From the NCBI RefSeq assembly GCF_006440775.1, contig NZ_VFTZ01000004.1, positions 248,001 to 312,000 on the forward strand: DNA of 64,000 nucleotides, read 5' to 3'. Positions 7,349 through 16,914 of the stretch are shown in pieces. Each line of letters opens with the position of its first letter. Position 1 is the stretch's first letter. The translations under genes were made by a program, and so were the position numbers. The notes beneath the pieces are model-generated. The model searched no databases. It had not been told where the DNA came from and saw only the letters and a program-made list of their open reading frames with translations. Source of the stretch: Mesorhizobium sp. B2-7-2. GTDB taxonomy: Bacteria > Pseudomonadota > Alphaproteobacteria > Rhizobiales > Rhizobiaceae.

Positions 7349-7576
7349 ATGTCTGAATTTGCAGCGGGTGATGTTGTTCAACTGAAATCCGGGGGTCCTC
7401 AAATGACTGTTGAGCAAGTAGGCAAGACGAGCATGACGGACGAGGACGGCGTGTGGTGCGTGTGGTTTGAAAAAATCGGAAACAAGCAAGTCGTTCAAAG
7501 AGAAACTTTTCCGCCCGTGGCGCTGAAAAAATACGAACGCCCCGCCACCGGATCGATTGCGGTGCACAGAGCCTAA
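7349..7576 (+). CDS. DUF2158 (YodC-like) small protein
   Basis: A 75-residue protein starting MSEFAAGDVVQLKSGGPQMTV, the typical opening of the DUF2158/YodC family, with a short beta-barrel-like body (VWCVWFEKIGNKQ and RETFPPVALKKY). The family function is unknown. AAGGAG lies nine bases before the ATG at 7349, which decides this start over an upstream in-frame ATG at 7319. The stop is only two bases before the ATG of the caspase-helicase gene, so the two are almost certainly cotranscribed and translationally coupled. Small DUF2158 genes are often seen beside mobile or defence genes; a role as a regulator or partner of the large protein is inference. Confidence 0.85.
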   Translation: MSEFAAGDVVQLKSGGPQMTVEQVGKTSMTDEDGVWCVWFEKIGNKQVVQRETFPPVALKKYERPATGSIAVHRA

Positions 7577-7578
7577 CC

Positions 7579-10500
7579 ATGATCCGCGCAGCGTTTATCG
7601 GAATCAACAAACATCTTGATCCGCTTGCGCGGGAACTGAGCGGCGCTGTGGGTGATGCTTCGACTATGTGCGCGGTGCTGTCGGATTCTATTGACCGGTT
7701 TCAGCCAACGCTTATCACTGACCACGACGCGACTTATGCGAGGGTTTCGGCCATCTTTGACGATGTGCTCGACGGTGCATCAGAAGATGACGTCGTCATC
7801 CTGTTTTTTGCCGGCCACGGCACGCAAGACCACCGATTAGTTTTAACGGATACGCGCTCTGACGACGTTCCGGGAACGACAATAGACATGACGGAGATTG
7901 CCGCGAAGTTTCGGACTTCGCGAGCGCGCGCTGTCCTGCTTTTGCTAGATTGCTGCTTTAGCGGTGGCGCGCCGGCACGCGTTCTGGATGTCGGATACAT
8001 TCCGCGCGCAGCGGGGATGCCGCTCGCCGAAGTTGGTGGACAGGGCCGTATTCTTTTCGCTGCATGCAATCCAAACGAGGAGGCCCTCGAAGACCCCCAA
8101 ACACGCCACGGTCTTTTTACGAAGGCGATTTTGGATTGCATACTGGAGAGTGATGGGCCGGTGAGCGTGGTTGCGATGGTGGACCGCGTTGTGCAAATGG
8201 TCCGCGCCAACGCAGCCCGATTCGGTTACGAACAGACTCCGGTGATGTTCGGTCATGTCGAAGGAGAGCTAACCCTGCCGAAAGGTATGCGCGGTAAATG
8301 CTACCGCGCGCTCTATCCCGAAAGGGGCACGGTCACTGTTTCAGGTCCAATTGGGGAGCTTTCGGCCTACGGAATTCCTCAGAATGCGCTGAACGCTTGG
8401 AGCGATCGTTTCCCCGCCGGTCTGAATTCATTGCAGATCGCCACTGTGAATAGCCATGGCGTGCTCGATGGAAAATCTCTTCTCGTCGTAGCGCCGACAA
8501 GTGCCGGCAAAACGTTTGTCGGCGAGATGGCAGCACTGAAAGCAATCGGCGAGGGAAAGAAGGCGGTTTTCCTCCTCCCTTACAAAGCGCTGGTCAATGA
8601 AAAATTCGAAGATTTCTCTGCGCTCTATGGCGACCTTTTGAATCTGCGCATCGCCCGATGCAGCGGCGATTGGCAAGATCAGGTTGGCGACGTTCTAAGG
8701 GGCAAGTACGACATAGCCTTCTTCACTTATGAGAAGTTTTTGGCTCTGTCAGTTTCCTCTCCGCACATCCTTCACCAAATCGGTCTGGTGGTGATTGACG
8801 AAGGACAGTTTATCACAGAGCCGGGTCGTGGGATGGTTGTGGAGCTAATCCTCACCAATCTTTTGAGCGCACGCGAGCGGGGGATTGCACCTCAGTTGGT
8901 GACCCTGAGTGCGGTAATCGGCGACACAAACAACTTTGAGCGCTGGCTTGATTGTGAACTTCTCCTTACGACCGAGCGTCCGGTTCCCTTGACAGAAGGT
9001 GTCATTGATCGGAGCGGCGTGTGGAAGTTGCAGCGTCCTAATGGTGAGGTGGAGGTCGCGCAGTTGTTCGCACGCTGCGAGATACGGCAGCGCCGGGATA
9101 AGCCATCTTCCCAAGACGTTCTCGTACCGCTGGTTCGGCATCTCGCCGGTCAGGGCGAAAAGGTCATCGTCTTTCGTAACGCGAGAGGACCATCCGCCGG
9201 TTGCGCGGAATATCTCGCGGCCGAGTTGGGTTTGCCGCCAGCACAAACAATCGCGGACATGCTGCCGGGAATGGATCGTTCGGATATGTCCGAACGCCTT
9301 CGCCGCGCGCTCAACGGCGGCGTTGCCTTTCACAACGGTGATCTTAATCGCGAAGAACGCATGATCGTGGAGAGAGGCTTTCGCGACCCAAACGGTGGGA
9401 TTCAGGTTTTGGTGGCGACAAGCACCGTAGCTGCCGGCGTAAACACGCCGGCTTCGACCGTCATCGTGGCGGAAACGGAATTTCGCGGAGTGGAGCCGCA
9501 GCCTTACACTGTCGCTCAGTATAAGAACATGGCGGGCCGTGCAGGTCGCCTGGGCTACGAGACAGAAGGCAAAGCCATAGTTCTCGCCGACACCGGCATG
9601 GAGCGAGAGAATCTCTTCCGGCGCTACGTTCAGGGACGTCCCGAACGCATCCAGTCTTCCTTCGACGAAAGAAGCCCGGGCACGTGGGTCGTTAGACTTC
9701 TGGCGCAGGTAAAGGATATTCCAAGCAATGCAGTTGTCGATCTGGTGGCAAACACCTATGGAGGATTTCTTGCCTCGCTGAGAGATCCCGCCTGGCGCGG
9801 CAGCATGTCAACCCGGCTCCTCAATTTGATGACGAGGATGCAGCACGATGGGTTGATTGATGAGCGCGATGGAAGGCTGAGGCTAACGCCTCTAGGGCGC
9901 GCCTGCGGCGAGTCACCCCTCAGCTTGGAATCCAGTATGCAGGCTGTTGAGCTGCTACGCCAATTGCCGCCGGATTCGATAGGACTAGAGACGGTTCTCG
10001 TTTTATTGGAAGCGCTGCCCGAACGCGATGAAGACTACACGCCTCAAACAAGACGCGGTGAGCCGCAACGGCAGCAACAAGTTTCGCAACGCTTTGGCCA
10101 ACATGTGGCGCGTGCCCTATGGCATCGTGCGGAAAGCGATGTGAAATATTACGGTCGCTGCAAACGTGCGCTCATCGTTTCGGACTGGATCGAAGGCGTT
10201 ACAATCACGGATATTGAGACTGGCTACACCACCAATCCGTTTTCGCCCATTCGTCATGGCGACATAAGGGGTTTTGCTGACGGTACCCGCTTCCTGTTGG
10301 ACTCGGTGCTCCGAATAGCTGCGATCGTTCTTGGTCGAGCTGATGATCCCGATGAGGTGAGTACTTTGCTTAAACGCCTTGACCTTGGAATACCCGGCGC
10401 AGCCTTCTCCTTGACTGAATTACCTATCGTCTTAGCGCGCGGCGAAATCCTCGAGTTGTGGAAAAACGGATATGGAAGTCGAGAGCAAGTCGAACATGCA

Positions 10501-10590
10501 ACCGAAGCCGAACTCGTATCCTTGTTGAACGCGAGAGGGAATATGTTGTACGCCGCATTGCACGAGGAACTTGCTATCACTGGGTCCTGA
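7579..10590 (+). CDS. caspase-like protease fused to a Ski2-type SF2 helicase
   Basis: A 1003-residue cytoplasmic fusion. Residues 1-230 form a peptidase C14 (caspase/metacaspase-like) domain with the catalytic His80 in FFAGHGT and Cys126 in DCCFSGG. Residues 260-700 form an SF2 helicase: Walker A APTSAGKT (305-312), VIDEGQ as motif II (a variant of DExH), TLSAV as motif III, a FHNGDL motif, VLVATSTVAAGVNTP and MAGRAGRLGY as motifs V and VI. This arrangement matches the Ski2/Brr2/HelQ group. The C-terminal 300 residues resemble the helical region of such helicases. The gene follows a DUF2158 gene by two bases and converges on a metallo-beta-lactamase gene 178 bases away. A nucleic-acid sensor that triggers its own protease is the obvious model, but that is inference; substrate and trigger are unknown. 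All key residues appear intact. Confidence 0.88.
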   Translation: MIRAAFIGINKHLDPLARELSGAVGDASTMCAVLSDSIDRFQPTLITDHDATYARVSAIFDDVLDGASEDDVVILFFAGHGTQDHRLVLTDTRSDDVPGTTIDMTEIAAKFRTSRARAVLLLLDCCFSGGAPARVLDVGYIPRAAGMPLAEVGGQGRILFAACNPNEEALEDPQTRHGLFTKAILDCILESDGPVSVVAMVDRVVQMVRANAARFGYEQTPVMFGHVEGELTLPKGMRGKCYRALYPERGTVTVSGPIGELSAYGIPQNALNAWSDRFPAGLNSLQIATVNSHGVLDGKSLLVVAPTSAGKTFVGEMAALKAIGEGKKAVFLLPYKALVNEKFEDFSALYGDLLNLRIARCSGDWQDQVGDVLRGKYDIAFFTYEKFLALSVSSPHILHQIGLVVIDEGQFITEPGRGMVVELILTNLLSARERGIAPQLVTLSAVIGDTNNFERWLDCELLLTTERPVPLTEGVIDRSGVWKLQRPNGEVEVAQLFARCEIRQRRDKPSSQDVLVPLVRHLAGQGEKVIVFRNARGPSAGCAEYLAAELGLPPAQTIADMLPGMDRSDMSERLRRALNGGVAFHNGDLNREERMIVERGFRDPNGGIQVLVATSTVAAGVNTPASTVIVAETEFRGVEPQPYTVAQYKNMAGRAGRLGYETEGKAIVLADTGMERENLFRRYVQGRPERIQSSFDERSPGTWVVRLLAQVKDIPSNAVVDLVANTYGGFLASLRDPAWRGSMSTRLLNLMTRMQHDGLIDERDGRLRLTPLGRACGESPLSLESSMQAVELLRQLPPDSIGLETVLVLLEALPERDEDYTPQTRRGEPQRQQQVSQRFGQHVARALWHRAESDVKYYGRCKRALIVSDWIEGVTITDIETGYTTNPFSPIRHGDIRGFADGTRFLLDSVLRIAAIVLGRADDPDEVSTLLKRLDLGIPGAAFSLTELPIVLARGEILELWKNGYGSREQVEHATEAELVSLLNARGNMLYAALHEELAITGS

Positions 10591-10768
10591 ACAGCCTTCG
10601 TATGGCTGCGGTCGATAGGAAGGCAGGGGTTGCGATGGCTTTTTCACGCCCGCTCCAACCTCATTTGGCCAACAGATCGCGATGCGGCAACATGGCATGT
10701 AATGATCATCACAAGACCGATGACCGTGCCCAGATTTTGCCCTGAGGAAGAGAACGCGACCACTCCCC

Positions 10769-11848
10769 TCAGATAGAAATGACCAAGCCCTGCTCGCCTT
10801 GGGCAGGAAACACGCAGTGGTAATTGAAGCGGCGCATTGTCTCGGGGTCGTTCCAGATCGTGGTGTTCTCTTGCGCATAATTGAAATAGAGAACCTTTTG
10901 ACGCACCGGGTCATTCACAAGGATTCTTGCGATAGTTTCGGGATCGGGGTGGTTGTGGCGCGAGCCATCCGTCGAAAAGGCGAATGCCGTGCAATCGAGA
11001 ATCCTAAGAATCTCTGGCGAGGTATTGGCCTTGCTGCCGTGATGGGAGACTTTGAAGCAAGCGAGGGGATAGGGTTCGGCCTCGCTCGCTCCGAGCTCCC
11101 GCAAAGCGCGCTCCATGATGCCCGGATGGGCATCGGCGCCCAAAAGGACGCGGCGACCGCCGAACTCGGCAATGAAGGCGATGCTGCTGCGATTAGGCGC
11201 GGCGGTGTCTTCCTTGAAGCGTTTGGAGGCGAGTTGCTCGACGTCCAGCCCGGACAAGGGCTCGCGGCCTGAGCCAGGTTCGCCCATTCCGTGGTCAGGG
11301 TCGAATGGGCGGAGTCCATTGGCTTCAAGTTCGTCCATCCAACGCGGGATCAGCGCGGCAAGATCTGCATCGTTGGGCGAGAGTAGGCGAATCGCGAGCC
11401 CGGCGAAGCTAATTTCGCCACTTGCCTCCGGGCTCCCACGTGAGGCTATGCGGCTGGCGAAGCGGGAGTTCCATTTCCAATTGAACTTATCGATGCCGGA
11501 CGAAAGCTTTTCGCCCTGCTCGGCGTTGAGTGGCTCGGTTTCGAGACCCGCTGTAATGCGGTCACGCGCTTCGACAAGCTGATGGTAGGCATTGAACCAC
11601 ACCTCTTTGGGATTGAACGGCGCCGCCGCCTCGCGCACCAAAGGCATGGCTCCTTCGATGTGATCGGCATCGATGTGGCTGATTACGAAGAGTTCGCAGT
11701 TGCTCATCTCCTTTAGCGCAGGCCGGGCAGTGCCGTAGTCCTTTGTGCGGCCGAGATCGACCAGGGCGTGATACGAATGGTCCTCATCGCCCCAGGCGAG
11801 GACAAGCGCATCGCCCTCAGACGCCGGATTCATGGTGAGTGTGAACAT
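10769..11848 (-). CDS. ComEC/Rec2-type metallo-beta-lactamase fold hydrolase
   Basis: A 359-residue protein with the metal-binding signature SHIDADHIEG (His58, Asp60, Asp62, His63), a later LLGADAH that supplies a bridging Asp, and the KVSHHGS segment characteristic of the ComEC C-terminal and related stand-alone hydrolases. No membrane segments are seen, so it is likely soluble. Such folds cleave phosphodiesters or esters; the substrate is unknown. The start at 11848 has GAGGTAG upstream, and it lies nine bases after the stop of the caspase-like gene, so it is the last gene of a CHAT - caspase - MBL operon. Nuclease activity against foreign or host nucleic acid would fit a defence role, but nothing in the sequence proves it. 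Confidence 0.85.
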   Translation of the reverse strand: MFTLTMNPASEGDALVLAWGDEDHSYHALVDLGRTKDYGTARPALKEMSNCELFVISHIDADHIEGAMPLVREAAAPFNPKEVWFNAYHQLVEARDRITAGLETEPLNAEQGEKLSSGIDKFNWKWNSRFASRIASRGSPEASGEISFAGLAIRLLSPNDADLAALIPRWMDELEANGLRPFDPDHGMGEPGSGREPLSGLDVEQLASKRFKEDTAAPNRSSIAFIAEFGGRRVLLGADAHPGIMERALRELGASEAEPYPLACFKVSHHGSKANTSPEILRILDCTAFAFSTDGSRHNHPDPETIARILVNDPVRQKVLYFNYAQENTTIWNDPETMRRFNYHCVFPAQGEQGLVISI

Positions 11849-11857
11849 TGAGCTACC

Positions 11858-14281
11858 TCATGGAGTAAGCTTGACCACTGTGAAGGCCTGTTGCGGATCG
11901 ACGCGAGCCGCGACCCGCCGGACCAGCCCTCGCTCCTCTGAAGACTCCTCCTGCGACCCAGGAACCGATTCAAGACCGCGGGCCAGCCAGTCGCAGGTGA
12001 GCGAGAAAAATGGCACGCCGCGGCTGAACCCTTGTTCGAGCAATTCGGAGATACGATCGAAGTCGGGCGACCTCTCGGTCATCAGGCGACGCGCCAGGAT
12101 AATAGGCCCGTCGGGGATTTGCGGAAACCGGTTGGTGATGTTCTCGAGCCATTGCCGTGGCACAAGCTCCGATGCTCCGGCTCCCACTGCGATTAGAGCA
12201 CCCGCCACGGCCGCAAGCGGGTTGGTCATCTTGCTGCGGACGGCCTCGCGGACCTCTCCTTGCATGACCTTGAGAACCTCGGAGCCACGCTCGAAGTCGC
12301 GCGAAGCGAGGAACGCCAGCAGGCCGGACCATCGGTATGACTCGACGATGCCCGACGTCGCGGCTCGCCCTTCTGCTGGAGCGGCGGCGACGATTAGGTG
12401 AGCGGACCATTCGTTTGGGTCGCTCGGCCGGCCCAACTGCGGCAGAAAGGCCGCTTCGATGCGGGTACCGAATCCAAGGACGGCCCAGAGCGGCCCGCTG
12501 CGCTGCGTGTAGGCGTCCTCGAAGACCAGAGGATTGTGCTCGGGCACATCAAAGCGAAGAAAGTCCCGATCGCCCGCTGCCTCCCGCAAGGCGGGTGTTC
12601 GCGGGCCTGCCGCACCTAGGCGGGCTGCGTCGCGCGGCTTGGCCATTACCCCGACGAGTTCGGAGAACGAGGGGGCCGGCATTGAACGGGCGACACTGGT
12701 GACCGTCGGTCCCCTAGGGTTGAGAGGCTGCTGTGGAAATCGAGGTGCGCTGACCGCGTCTGGCCCCTGGGATATTGAGGTGCTGGCAAGAAGCGCGCCG
12801 GCTAAGGTCGCATACCCCAGCCATTCATGCAGGGAAGGGCCGCTGACAATCAGGCTATGGACACTCGCGCCTTGCTCGGCTTGGAGTTCCCTGCTGACGC
12901 TCGTCCCGTCGGGAAGCGTAATGACGGCGCTGTAGGCACCCGGCTCGACGTCAAGGCGCAGCTTTTCGCGAGTGCCGCCGACTACTGGTTTCAGTGGACC
13001 GGGGTTGTTGCCGTCGCGCCGCGACAATGCGACGACGAAGCCGGCCCCTACCTCCGCTGCGGCAGTAAACTCAAAAACCAATTCGGCGCCGGGGCCGCGA
13101 CGCGGGACTGGCGAGGCGGTTTCGACGGTCGGTACCGCTCCGATTTCGACGAATGCCACGGGAGCGCGAGGGGTAAGTATCTCTGACCCAAGAGCCTTGC
13201 CGTCCCGATCAATTGAAATCGTCACTGTCTTCAGTTCTTCGAGGTCAAACTCCGCGAAGAAGGGCGCGGCCTCGCCCGCAGTTTTCGTAGACACGACCTC
13301 CCGATGGTCTGAGATGACGGTGCGACAGCGTGGCCATCGGGCTCGATCGGAAAGACTGACATAGGTTTTCACCCGATCAAGGCCGCCAGGATAGGTGATC
13401 GCAAAGCTTCCAGCGGCTCGGCCCGCCGGCGTCTGCAACGACCCGTCTGGTCGAGCAAAGAGCCTTAGAAACTGAGTGAGCCGGTCAACGAGAATGCCGG
13501 GTCGAACCGGCCAGCGTGCCCCCGACACGTCGGCCGCGGCACCGTTGAGCGCTCGGAGCAAACTGTCGGTGAAGACAGTTGTCTTATCGCGCCGACCGTC
13601 GGCCTCCTCATAGAGGCTAGTTGAGCAGAGCGCCCATTGGTGGCGCGTTCCACCGTGGTCGTCCCGCGCTCGTGAAAGCGAGATCAGCTTGGTGCCGAAC
13701 TCCTCTTCGGCAGGCAGCCCCAACGAGGTCTTCAAACGGCAGCAATCGAACAATAACAGCTGCGACGTCGGCACAGCGTTCTCGAGCGCTGTAATGAACT
13801 GCTCGATCTCGGTCATTCCGGCGGTCTGCTCAAGCGGGTCTGTGTCGTAGTCTTCAAGTAAGAAGGCTGTCCTCCGACCGAAGCTCTCGCCGTGGCTTGA
13901 AAGGAACAGCACCATCACGTTGTCCTTGTGCGTATTGGCCCGCTTGACCCAGTCCTTCACTGCAGCCTTCACCTCGGCAAACGTCGCTCGTGGCACGGTT
14001 ACGCTTGCATATTGGGCGCCAGCCTGCCCAGGGGGCGTTTCAGAGAGGGCCAGTGCAAGGCTCCCGAGCGGCCGCTCCGGGTTGGTGAATCCGGCCTTCT
14101 GATCGAGAAACCAGTCGGCGATAGCGCGTGCCGAGATCGGCGGTGAAGTAACCGGCTTCAGCTTCTTGCTCTGAAACGCGCCGACGCCAATGATCATCAC
14201 ATGGGTCGCGGGCCGTCGGTCGAAAGCGGTATCCACAAAGACGAGACCCTTGTCGCGTTCAGCGTTGTCGTCGCTACTCAT
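11858..14281 (-). CDS. caspase-like (peptidase C14) multidomain protein
   Basis: About 807 residues. The N-terminal 300 residues hold a caspase-like fold: a beta strand leading to MVLFLSSHGES with His130 and LLLFDCCR with Cys181, the expected catalytic dyad. The protein also has a segment of beta-rich repeats (residues about 330-480), a short hydrophobic stretch near 490-505 (WLGYATLAGALLAST), and a C-terminal helical part without a recognisable domain. I took the ATG at 14281, which has GGGGGA just upstream, rather than the in-frame start at 14320. It is the middle gene between the CHAT gene (51 bases upstream) and the MBL gene (9 bases downstream). The long C-terminal part may be the sensor or target-recognition region; this is inference. 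Confidence 0.82.
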   Translation of the reverse strand: MSSDDNAERDKGLVFVDTAFDRRPATHVMIIGVGAFQSKKLKPVTSPPISARAIADWFLDQKAGFTNPERPLGSLALALSETPPGQAGAQYASVTVPRATFAEVKAAVKDWVKRANTHKDNVMVLFLSSHGESFGRRTAFLLEDYDTDPLEQTAGMTEIEQFITALENAVPTSQLLLFDCCRLKTSLGLPAEEEFGTKLISLSRARDDHGGTRHQWALCSTSLYEEADGRRDKTTVFTDSLLRALNGAAADVSGARWPVRPGILVDRLTQFLRLFARPDGSLQTPAGRAAGSFAITYPGGLDRVKTYVSLSDRARWPRCRTVISDHREVVSTKTAGEAAPFFAEFDLEELKTVTISIDRDGKALGSEILTPRAPVAFVEIGAVPTVETASPVPRRGPGAELVFEFTAAAEVGAGFVVALSRRDGNNPGPLKPVVGGTREKLRLDVEPGAYSAVITLPDGTSVSRELQAEQGASVHSLIVSGPSLHEWLGYATLAGALLASTSISQGPDAVSAPRFPQQPLNPRGPTVTSVARSMPAPSFSELVGVMAKPRDAARLGAAGPRTPALREAAGDRDFLRFDVPEHNPLVFEDAYTQRSGPLWAVLGFGTRIEAAFLPQLGRPSDPNEWSAHLIVAAAPAEGRAATSGIVESYRWSGLLAFLASRDFERGSEVLKVMQGEVREAVRSKMTNPLAAVAGALIAVGAGASELVPRQWLENITNRFPQIPDGPIILARRLMTERSPDFDRISELLEQGFSRGVPFFSLTCDWLARGLESVPGSQEESSEERGLVRRVAARVDPQQAFTVVKLTP

Positions 14282-14332
14282 CAGTCCCCCAGTTCCATTT
14301 TGGTCCGGACGCGCCGGCACGAACTATCAGTC

Positions 14333-15430
14333 TCAGGCGGCTGGCGTTTGCCCCTTCACCAACACAACCTGATCAAGGTCTATCCCCGATCGTGACAACG
14401 ACTCGAGCAAGGAGGCGTCGTCCAGCAGCAAGGCGTCCTTGAGGCCAAGTCTGGCCTGCTGCAAAGCCATCCCCGCCGGCTGTCCCTCAGCGATCGCTGC
14501 ATAAAAACGCACTGCGAATACCCTGGCGCCAATATCCCCGACTTCACCACGCATTCCGATAATAACAGGGACCGTTTCGAGCAGCGCTTCGGCGCCGACG
14601 AGACTGTCGCACGCATTGAGGACAACGAGAATCGGTGGCGTTGTCGTTGCCGCCAGCAGATCGGCAATCCACTGCAGCGGTATCGGTCGTGCTTGAGTAC
14701 TGTGGACAAGCCCGTCGTCAAATAGCAAGGCGCCCTCGGCGGCATGACCCGAAAAATGGATAACATGCGGACGTCGTTCGTTTGTCCCATCGATCAGATC
14801 GGCGAACGTCGCTGCCGGAAGATGCTCGAGATCGATGAGATCGCGATGCAGCGCACTCTTGAGTGCCTTGAGAACGTCCCGCACCTCACGGTCGGTCTGG
14901 AGCCAGCGGCCCTCCTCGACGACTGACCCGTCGTCGCGCTGGTAGATGCGTTCGGTCGCTTCGGGATTGGCTGTGACGTAGAGGACTCGGAGCCGTTCGG
15001 GTTTGGGCTCGGGGATACGCGCGAGATGCGGGGCCGACTGCAGGAGCCCGTGAACCTGACGCGCGTGAGTGAGTTCCTCACGTCGGCGCTTCTTGTCGGC
15101 GCGCTCGCGTTCCTTGCGCAGGTCTTCTTCCGCGCTAGCGATCGCTGCCTGCTTCCTCGCTTGGTCCTTGGCGTTGCGACCGATTTTCTCGGCGACCGCG
15201 GCAGCCTTCTTACCGGTTTCGGTGGCCTTGTGGTCGAGTGACACAGCCGAGCGGAGATAGGAATTGATCGACGACGCATTGCGGGACCGCGCCGCCGACT
15301 GACGCTTCGAACCGGCATCTTTCCGCGCCAAAGCAACTGTTGCCTCGTGCCCGGCGAGTTCCTTCCGAAGCCGCCCTTCCGATTGCTTAAGCCGAGCGAG
15401 TTCGCTGCGCAGGCTATCGATGCGCGACAT
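14333..15430 (-). CDS. CHAT-domain protease with N-terminal coiled coil
   Basis: A 365-residue protein. Residues 1-130 are rich in Arg, Lys, Glu and Ala with heptad-like spacing (LRSELARLKQSEGRLRKEL, then SASSINSYLR-like motif and RKERERADKKRRREEL), which indicates a coiled coil. Residues 145-365 are a CHAT (caspase HetF associated with TPRs) domain: LRVLYVTANP opening, catalytic His229 in HFSGHA and Cys274 in LNACDS. CHAT domains are cysteine peptidases known from separase-like and anti-phage contexts such as TPR-CHAT with type III CRISPR. The start has GGAGTAGACA before the ATG. It is the first gene of the leftward operon with the caspase-like and MBL genes and probably shares a promoter region with the diverging second CHAT gene. 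Confidence 0.87.
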   Translation of the reverse strand: MSRIDSLRSELARLKQSEGRLRKELAGHEATVALARKDAGSKRQSAARSRNASSINSYLRSAVSLDHKATETGKKAAAVAEKIGRNAKDQARKQAAIASAEEDLRKERERADKKRRREELTHARQVHGLLQSAPHLARIPEPKPERLRVLYVTANPEATERIYQRDDGSVVEEGRWLQTDREVRDVLKALKSALHRDLIDLEHLPAATFADLIDGTNERRPHVIHFSGHAAEGALLFDDGLVHSTQARPIPLQWIADLLAATTTPPILVVLNACDSLVGAEALLETVPVIIGMRGEVGDIGARVFAVRFYAAIAEGQPAGMALQQARLGLKDALLLDDASLLESLSRSGIDLDQVVLVKGQTPAA

Positions 15431-15942
15431 TGTCTACTCCGAAATCAGAATGGGTGCGGTCGAGCCAAGAGCAAGGGCTGGCCGGGGGCAATCAAACCGT
15501 GGCGCCTGAAACATCGGACCTAGGCCTCCTCGCTTCCCTGGCTCGCGTTTCTGAGGACAAAGTTCAAGTAATTCCGCTCAGAAGGCGGCAGAGTTGGCTG
15601 GTTCATGCAATTCTCCATCACTGCTCTTGAACTGGAAGCTAAACCGTATGAACTTGCCTACCAATTGTCGACCCACGAGGCGACGTATGGTCGATCAAGG
15701 CGACGGGGTATTCTGCTGAAAGTTCGTGGCGACCGAACAGCGTTCGAGCGGGCCGCGGCATTGGCGCTAGGAAGCGCAGCTCCGCCGAGAAGATCCCAGC
15801 GATCCCATCGGCAGGTGGTGGCGGCAGCGGATCGCAAGAGACGTCGGCTCGAATCGGTTCAGGCGAACACAGCTCGCTTTAAGGTTAAGCTCGCGCCTCA
15901 CGACGGGTACATTGCTCGGCATGCGCTGCATTGGGGATTAGC
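15431..15942. other. divergent intergenic region between two CHAT genes
   Basis: About 500 bases separate the two diverging CHAT genes and must hold both promoters. An open frame at 15605-15982 lacks a good ribosome binding site, has no family motifs and overlaps the second CHAT gene, so I do not call it. I cannot identify operators. Confidence 0.45.
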
Positions 15943-16914
15943 GTGGCTAAGACGGAAATCGACGCGAACGGAAGTGGGCTAAAAAGCCTTATTGGCTCGC
16001 TCAAGGCCAGGGCGAAGCGTACCGCTGGACACTACCGTAAGGAAGACACGGGTATCACGCCCGAAGAATGGCCCAGGGACGCGGAGGTCGAGCTGATTGA
16101 AAGCCTTGTGCGGGAGAAGGCCAGACGGGTGACCGGAGGGGATTCCAGCCAGCAGTGGAAGGGGTGCCGTGAGTTCGCGCAGGCGATCAGAGATTCGCGC
16201 AACCCAACTGTCTCGCGTGAACATTTCGGGACGGAGGAAGCGCAGCGTCGCTACGAACGCGCAGAAGCCGATTTCTTCGATGGTATCGCGCTCTGGGCCG
16301 ACAGTACAATGGACTATGTGACCTATCTGAGCGCACTAGCTGTCGAGACGGCTACGAAGCTCCGGATACTCTTTCTAGCGGCCAATCCCTCGGACAGAAC
16401 TCGGTTGCGGCTCGACAGGGAATTGCGGGACATTCGAGAAGAGCTGGCAACGGCAGGATACCGCGAGCGGTTTGACCTCCAAGCACGCGGAGCAGTCCGT
16501 GCCAAGGACATGGTGCGGGCACTGCTTGAGCTCGAACCGGCCTATGTGCACTTCTCCGGCCACGGTACTGCTGATGGTGCAATCTGTGTGGAAGCATCCG
16601 ATGGCACGAGCCACGAAATCGACCCCGACGCGTTGGCCGCGCTGTTCGCGGCGGCGGGCGAGAAAGTCCGGTGTGTCCTGCTCAACGCTTGCTTTTCTGA
16701 AAACCAGGCTCTTGCGATTGCCCGGCATGTCCCCTTCGTCATCGGCATGCGCACGACAATCAGTGACGAGGCGGCGATCGCGTTCGCCACCGGTTTCTAC
16801 CGAGCACTTGGTGCCGGAAAGGGCGTCCCGGTCGCATTCGAATTGGGGATTGTCGAATTGAAACTGTTTGGCATCGCGGAGCACGAAACGCCTGTTATCG
16901 TGCAGTGTCCTTAG
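15943..16914 (+). CDS. second CHAT-domain protease with novel N-terminal domain
   Basis: A 323-residue protein. The CHAT domain spans residues 138-323 with the opening LRILFLAANPSDRTRLRLD, catalytic His207 in HFSGHGTADG and Cys250 in LNACFS. The first 135 residues form a separate, mostly helical domain (SLIGSLKARAKRTAGHY, EVELIESLVREKARR) that I do not recognise; domains in this position are often small effector-associated adaptor domains that pair proteases with sensors. The GTG at 15943 is preferred over the TTG at 15931 because GGGG precedes it. It reads away from the CHAT-caspase-MBL operon. The two CHAT proteins differ outside the core, so they are not a recent duplication. Confidence 0.83.
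   Translation: MAKTEIDANGSGLKSLIGSLKARAKRTAGHYRKEDTGITPEEWPRDAEVELIESLVREKARRVTGGDSSQQWKGCREFAQAIRDSRNPTVSREHFGTEEAQRRYERAEADFFDGIALWADSTMDYVTYLSALAVETATKLRILFLAANPSDRTRLRLDRELRDIREELATAGYRERFDLQARGAVRAKDMVRALLELEPAYVHFSGHGTADGAICVEASDGTSHEIDPDALAALFAAAGEKVRCVLLNACFSENQALAIARHVPFVIGMRTTISDEAAIAFATGFYRALGAGKGVPVAFELGIVELKLFGIAEHETPVIVQCP

Follow-up and report, generated by a model that had tools for sequence, protein, structure and literature searches.

Gene content of the locus

The window analysed here comprises 64,000 nucleotides of Mesorhizobium sp. B2-7-2 (NZ_VFTZ01000004.1, positions 248,001 to 312,000) and lies inside a single contig of a 6.37-Mb genome. Between window positions 7349 and 16914 stand six genes, three of which form a minus-strand operon that codes for a CHAT protease (CHAT1), a caspase and a metallo-β-lactamase-fold (MBL) protein; as judged from the main text of the paper in question, the last two resemble the caspase-nuclease system CanABC (canu), described in Science in November 2025 (Tuck et al. 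2025, PMC12799240). An adjoining plus-strand pair encodes a DUF2158 protein and a caspase fused to a Hel308-like helicase, and a second CHAT gene (CHAT2) diverges from the operon. An initial annotation, made from the sequence, had presented these genes as one undescribed immune or cell-death locus with four cysteine proteases. All six are confirmed as real, open frames at the positions it had assigned, and homology supports an immune or cell-death role. The catalytic His and Cys that it had reported are present in all four proteases (GHGT/LDCC, SHGE/FDCC, FSGH/LNAC and FSGH/LNAC), and those of the caspases are invariant among 34 caspase and 32 caspase-helicase aligned sequences, the window's included.

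The operon opens with the CHAT1 gene (14333-15430, minus strand; 365 aa, Pfam CHAT 59.6 bits), continues with a canA-canB-like fusion (11858-14320, minus strand; 820 aa, Pfam C14 38.4 bits, over the cut-off) and ends with a canC-like gene for a predicted gated MBL pro-nuclease (10769-11848, minus strand; 359 aa). The annotated operon structure holds, with a gap of 9 bp between the caspase and MBL genes and of 12 or about 51 bp between CHAT1 and the caspase, depending on the caspase start, as the database form of the latter has 807 aa, as if starting 13 residues later.

A probable canu-type caspase-nuclease module

In the published description, canu has the gene order CanA-CanB-CanC and protects E. 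coli against T4; KaeCanABC functions with three genes, and for the prototype cutting, DNase activity and phage defence are established (PMC12799240). The locus shares with it a caspase gene followed directly by the gene of an MBL with two disordered loops and paired cut-site-like motifs, a CanB-like part and, in relatives, a defence-island setting. It differs in that CanA and CanB are fused, the P1 residues are N and S, a CHAT gene precedes the caspase and a caspase-helicase module adjoins. By this comparison, the caspase and MBL genes form a canu module, namely a MALT1-like caspase with a CanB-like tail, then a predicted gated MBL pro-nuclease. The label "undescribed" is therefore only partly right, since it does not apply to this part; the caspase-helicase fusion is apparently unnamed.

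The caspase (residues 37-311; the VIA rows span 34-311) is structurally MALT1-like, and is followed by eight modelled strands at 316-401, the position of the canu Ig-like fold, and by a CanB-like part from about 430 to the end. The MBL falls below its Pfam cut-off (15.1 versus 22.7 bits), and its identity comes from PADLOC LmuA (235 bits), NCBIfam Avs1a (200.6 bits, the model's cut-off being 420) and the predicted fold; across 34 sequences, its HxDxDH and HHGS residues and D239 show no variation. A protein search, in which the 7992 candidates sharing most words were scored, returned 79 homologs of the operon caspase. An MBL gene follows the caspase in all six genome loci fetched, and caspase-MBL pairs were seen for 33 of the 79, which is a lower bound and not a rate. 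Pairing went by identical length of the longest contig, and the lengths for only 35 MBLs, picked by inspection from the 120 listed, entered the comparison.

On several plasmids (L017, L019, L020, L035, L036 and L038), a caspase of 372-399 aa is followed by a separate 404-503-aa protein and then by the MBL. Alignment places the second-gene proteins on stretches of the window protein's residues 431-820; therefore, the CanB-like part is present in the window, fused to the caspase. Split copies occur in Alphaproteobacteria, Caballeronia and Streptomyces, and the CanA-CanB fusion is new in this locus. In another Mesorhizobium, near a contig end, the CanB-like tail is instead fused to CanC in an 810-aa frame (L052, 8236-10668, complement); the existence of both CanA-CanB and CanB-CanC fusions fits one complex.

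Two further arrangements were observed among MBL relatives. On a walnut Agrobacterium pAt plasmid (L018, 11545-13080), an open CanC is preceded by a 142-aa CanB-like piece only, with no CanA match within the stretch, and 19 such rows with the same identity appeared in the MBL search. On a Cupriavidus plasmid (L037, 7398-11029), the MBL is without the twin cut motif, and the 861-aa protein encoded ahead of it shows neither a CanA match nor a DxC motif in its first 450 residues; no caspase-family match was found on the plasmid. This MBL has perhaps another partner, and the locus was set apart from the canu records for want of a CanA match.

Predicted twin cut-site motifs in the CanC loops

In the CanC model, the predicted local distance difference test (pLDDT) falls below 50 only at residues 100-106 and 186-200. 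Inside or bordering each of these runs is a motif E-x-L-[G/S/N], at residues 105-108 and 196-199. The two predicted caspase sites are thus EPLNA in gating loop 1 (residues 105-109; 11522-11536, minus strand) and EPLSG in gating loop 2 (residues 196-200; 11249-11263, minus strand).

The two motif copies co-vary within proteins. The set comprised 128 sequences, that is, the window, 119 hits among those listed and eight plasmid copies, with the 99% identical P0200 left out. Matches between the copies exceeded those expected from random pairing at P5 (90 versus 44), P4 (115 versus 62), P2 (115 versus 94.5) and P1 (83 versus 65), while no excess was found in these sequences at P3 (8 versus 7.7), P1' (15 versus 15.4) or P6 (15 versus 22.4). 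The P4 pairs were E/E in 79, V/V in 29, H/H in 6, D/D in 1 and unequal in 13. After clustering at 65% identity, P4 matched in 36 of 38 representatives against 20.5 expected. Furthermore, the twin-loop pair ranked first of 56,280 same-shape segment pairs, with 137 excess identities; next came registers of the same two loops shifted by at most 3 residues, and the best unrelated pair reached 44. The MBLs without an adjacent CanA match (L037, L056, L057, L059 and L060) lack the twin pair. We read the motifs as two substrate sites for one co-evolving caspase, a reading drawn from sequence, and the co-variation gives a testable specificity for each caspase-nuclease pair at P5, P4, P2 and P1, with P4 classes E, V and H.

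Several observations count against this interpretation. The segment shape and offsets of the all-pairs scoring, and so of the ranking, were chosen after the counts by position were known, and the shuffles behind the expected numbers ignore relatedness, which the all-pairs control shares. Two caspase-linked CanC proteins are exceptions, L051 having one site only (REALE at the second) and L052 having K at P4 of the first. In the published system, as the main text has it, a conserved glycine stands at the cut site of both CanC insertions (PMC12799240); the corresponding columns hold G in 25 and 17 of 34 family sequences, and the window has N108 and S199. Finally, the bare motif is weak, as among the six window proteins it also matches the MBL at 113 and the caspase-helicase, CanAB and CHAT2 once each.

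Two related searches yielded nothing that was kept. For a self-cut site in CanAB co-varying with those of CanC, the best segment (807, RVDPQQ) was not cut-like and was dropped. Columns of the caspase alignment at which the P4 = E and P4 = V classes differ (60, 149, 251 and others) were not used as evidence, because the two classes may simply be clades.

CHAT genes and the slot 5' of canA

CHAT2 (15931-16914, plus strand; Pfam CHAT 34.5 bits, over the cut-off) has 33% identity with CHAT1 across 189 columns of their CHAT region, and the best PDB sequence relative of CHAT1 and CHAT2 is 8tl0 (47 and 56 bits). The diverging second CHAT gene of the initial annotation is therefore present, with an uncertain start, or an uncertain intactness of its 5' end: the open frame extends 57 residues further in three relatives, and the window and one of them differ by one base in length in the 5' region. 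A 125-aa frame (15605-15982) overlaps the CHAT2 start out of frame.

Three plasmid relatives of CHAT1 gave nearly full-length matches with 37-41% identity, and no canu match was found within about 9 kb of them. Two are clustered with genes for TIR, caspase and S8 peptidase proteins, and one of these clusters also holds further CHAT genes and a metallophosphoesterase gene; the third relative adjoins a His-Xaa-Ser system.

In the window, CHAT1 occupies the position 5' of canA, where relatives carry other genes. The next same-strand gene encodes a patatin in L009, L010 and L011, a DUF2235 protein in L020, S8-like frames in L051, TIR proteins in L016 and, after a GAP1-N1-EAD1 protein, a caspase-EAD1 protein in L012. 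The upstream gene is divergent in L008, L017, L035, L036 and L058, being a patatin in L035, a TIR-caspase gene in L017 and an alpha/beta hydrolase in L036; L051 has a patatin gene convergent and downstream. No effector-like annotation was found 5' of canA in L019, L037 or L038. These loci, few in number, suggest that the slot is exchangeable and carries accessory effectors.

The presence of a CHAT gene in this slot is new in this locus. Neither CHAT nor patatin is mentioned in the main text of PMC12799240, and a survey of titles and abstract starts in the open-licence literature found no description of either with canu. On the Bosea plasmid, a 267-aa frame with a caspase match has in addition a CHAT match, which stays below the cut-off (17.9 bits).

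The caspase-helicase fusion and its DUF2158 partner

The DUF2158 gene (7349-7576, plus strand; 75 aa, Pfam DUF2158 47.4 bits, over the cut-off) ends 2 bp before the fusion gene (7579-10590, plus strand; 1003 aa), which agrees with the coupling first annotated. The fusion has a caspase at residues 4-224 and a Hel308-like helicase at about 285-990, with Pfam scores above all cut-offs (Peptidase_C14 57.4, DEAD 73.7 and Helicase_C 39.7 bits). The helicase spans nearly all of Hel308 (2zj2, profile 289-986, 277 bits) and its motifs are intact.

The fusion has 1700 homologs with E <= 0.001, and the sources named among the matches listed include Proteobacteria, Bacteroidota and Verrucomicrobiota. Among the best 120 of these 1700, 118 carry both domains in a precomputed Pfam list and, the window's own entry apart, identities are 53-68%. 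A DUF2158 gene and the fusion are likewise paired on a plasmid of A. pusense, with protein identities of 62.5% and 64.7%. The gene 5' of the fusion varies, being DUF2158 in the window and A. pusense and another gene elsewhere, such as that of a 201-aa protein, 70% alike, in Bosea and Rhodopseudomonas. Neighbours include restriction, Piwi, SAVED, ABC-three-component, DUF6527/ThiF and TIR-caspase genes. Phage-borne copies were limited to two weak matches to the helicase part, with none to the operon caspase. No paper naming the fusion, alone or with DUF2158, was found in the open-licence literature, preprints excluded. The caspase-Hel308 fusion with DUF2158 is widespread and apparently unnamed. 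The analogy with Hachiman, as PMC12799240 presents that system, makes a defence module built on a caspase the most likely reading, and the helicase would serve as its DNA sensor.

Comparison with other defence systems

Several known systems share single parts with the locus. The MBL is related to Avs1a of AVAST type 1 (Avs1a MBL, Avs1b protease and STAND NTPase), an enzyme opened by its protease according to the main text of PMC12799240; however, its Avs1a score is under the 420-bit cut-off and a caspase replaces the trypsin, no trypsin or STAND domain being found by Pfam in the six window proteins. Likewise, LmuA of MBL-bearing Lamassu is the best PADLOC model for the MBL, whereas the same Pfam scan of the six proteins showed no SMC domain (the LmuB-type partner). 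The helicase half matches HamB models of Hachiman (112 bits), but it is nearer to Hel308, is fused to a caspase and has DUF2158, not HamA, as partner. The CHAT catalytic core is shared with the type III CRISPR proteases (Craspase TPR-CHAT and SAVED-CHAT), although Pfam found no TPR or SAVED domain in either CHAT protein, and none of the six is a CRISPR protein by the same scan. EACC1-caspase systems were discarded, as their caspase model scored 92.7 and 39.5 against a cut-off of 140 bits.

Distribution and neighbourhood

The same block is found in M. ciceri WSM1271 with 97-99% protein identity. All six genes stand together in three Mesorhizobium genomes besides the window's own (L053, L054 and L055), which are nearly alike among themselves and of which L053 is the WSM1271 locus (L007). 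Both the canu part and the caspase-helicase part are rare: with the window's own genome included, 4 of the 397 genomes searched in the order matched the operon caspase and 2 matched the caspase-helicase. The former also matched in 5 of 146 genomes from the genus, and the latter in 3 of 101 relatives and, at a stricter limit, in 1 of 385 genomes from the class (its own only). The first pass of this search is loose and may miss copies. Outside the near-identical Mesorhizobium copies, and among the canu records examined, a caspase-helicase accompanies the canu core in one locus (Bosea) and a CHAT gene, of a different kind, in one (an Agrobacterium plasmid). Among 11 other caspase-helicase loci, canu is present in one, the Bosea plasmid, and absent from ten. 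A single six-gene locus was thus not borne out; rare co-occurrence, or membership in a known system, is what the initial annotation had itself named as speaking against it, and this is largely what was found, with the Bosea plasmid as exception.

Neighbours of canu were surveyed in 14 records, 13 of which have a recognisable CanA; the plasmid collection describes its own gene tables as incomplete, and for L008-L012, L050-L055 and L058 the frames were called in this analysis. Seven of the 14 records have a second caspase no more than 6 kb from canA, against 0.28 expected under uniform placement, which is too lenient, and 3.97 under 20-fold clustering, which is arbitrary, both nulls being crude. 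These second caspases are caspase-nSTAND1-WD40 proteins in L008 and L010, caspase-EAD1 in L012, a 333-aa caspase by a TIR gene in L017, caspase-Hel308 fusions in L007 and L016 (one in the latter), and larger proteins with caspase as the only Pfam domain in L011 and as one of three second caspases in L016. A functional link to canu is possible.

A TIR-caspase pair recurs near canu, caspase-helicase or CHAT genes (L017, 8690-11711; L023, 7470-11053; L043, 4593-5946). A metallophosphoesterase gene adjoins it in L017 and L023, the TIR proteins of the two being 75% and the metallophosphoesterases 54% identical. An RHE_PE00001 family protein is encoded in the same stretch as the defence cargo on four plasmids (L017, L021, L023 and L043) and may mark a shared cargo site. 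Caspase-family matches number 17 and 21 in the two Labrys genomes (G916 and G918), whereas each of the remaining 12 records has 0 to 4.

The flanks of the locus had been described as decayed, which is true of two apparent fragments, an S1/P1-nuclease piece (16.6 bits, below the cut-off) and a 180-aa frame with a carbamoyltransferase C-terminal domain alone, and not of a Crp-like regulator (240 aa) and a heavy-metal-resistance-like protein (209 aa), both of which appear whole. Rfam gave no match at gathering score in the window, no tRNA was found there, and promoter and terminator scans returned no more than shuffled sequence did. Selection on the intact genes, as proposed at the outset, is evident in part. 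Relative to M. ciceri, the ratio of nonsynonymous to synonymous polymorphism (pN/pS) is 0.12-0.15 for DUF2158 (6 changes), the caspase-helicase (29), the MBL (7) and the caspase (14), but 0.52 for CHAT1 (10 changes) and 0.36 for CHAT2 (21 changes); therefore, clear constraint is shown for four genes only.

Proposed mechanism and alternatives

We consider it likely that CHAT1-canAB-canC forms an anti-phage module of the canu type in which the CHAT protease is an accessory, that DUF2158/caspase-Hel308 is a separate module of the same island and that CHAT2 is a further island gene. Infection would activate the CanA caspase, fused to its CanB-like regulator, which would then cut the two disordered CanC loops at EPLN and EPLS. 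Loop cutting would open the MBL active site, and the resulting DNase would destroy cell and phage DNA, stopping infection through death or arrest. CHAT1 would most likely be a second effector or protease of the same response, because in relatives the slot holds other effector-like genes. The separate caspase module would probably sense abnormal DNA through its helicase, and CHAT2 would belong to the island at large. The gene order, domains, catalytic residues, twin loops with their co-variation and exchange of slot genes are observed, and the roles of CHAT1, CHAT2, DUF2158 and the helicase are only inferred.

Some findings weigh against this interpretation. The likeness to canu is drawn from the published description of KaeCanABC of K. 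aerogenes, as given in the main text, and the evidence on what the operon does is computational. Foldseek alignments past residue 311 are unreliable (root-mean-square deviation near 22), so that the Ig-like domain is not settled. A CHAT over the cut-off lies near canu in only 2 of 14 records, M. ciceri, whose two CHAT matches both sit at the canu locus, and the Agrobacterium plasmid pAtCG920, whose single match is not a CHAT1 relative.

The six genes might instead form one proteolytic cascade, in which the caspase-helicase as sensor, CHAT1 or both switch on CanAB, which then cuts CanC. The tight spacing of CHAT1-canAB-canC, the placement of both M. ciceri CHAT matches and the number of second caspases near canA relative to uniform placement are in keeping with it, as are the sensor-like parts fused to some of these caspases (nSTAND1-WD40 in L008 and L010, Hel308 in M. 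ciceri and Bosea) and the proteolytic cascade known for SAVED-CHAT (PMC11229360). Yet island clustering may account for the excess, as 3.97 such records are expected if defence genes cluster 20-fold; no second caspase neighbours canA in half of the records, ten of the 11 other caspase-helicase loci lack canu, and KaeCanABC, as published, works with three genes. We regard such a cascade as improbable, and a single six-gene system was set aside for its sparse co-occurrence outside Mesorhizobium. Less probable still is a non-immune origin, in which the protease genes would be housekeeping genes or remnants that chance has preserved while the region decays: fragment-like flanking frames and the weak constraint on the CHAT genes would fit it, but the close match to a tested defence system, the plasmid and island settings and the low pN/pS of four genes speak against it.

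Compatible with the canu module plus accessory CHAT is the idea that the CanA caspase itself switches on CHAT1 as a second effector, as it might the patatin, DUF2235, S8 and TIR proteins of the slot. The seven loci with same-strand slot genes (L009, L010, L011, L020, L051, L012 and L016) speak for it, together with the divergent patatin of L035 and the convergent one of L051. On the other hand, CHAT1 was rejected as a carrier of the CanC cut motif, having no match to E-x-[LMF]-[GSN]-[AGST]; L019, L037 and L038 lack effector-like annotation in the slot, and the upstream gene is divergent in five loci. We hold this to be a genuine possibility with somewhat less than an even chance. A modular canu that joins these ideas, in which a sensor-fused caspase (Hel308 here, nSTAND1-WD40 elsewhere) activates CanAB, which cuts CanC at the twin E-x-L-[G/S/N] and switches on the slot gene (CHAT1), is likewise improbable. 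If true, caspases in a bacterium would form an initiator-executioner chain whose second effector is a protease.

The slot and the caspase-helicase suggest that bacterial caspases combine with sensors and second effectors, much like the trypsin-like proteases in Hachiman, AVAST and Lamassu. The locus also hints at the sites where bacterial caspases cut and at the partners they may have.

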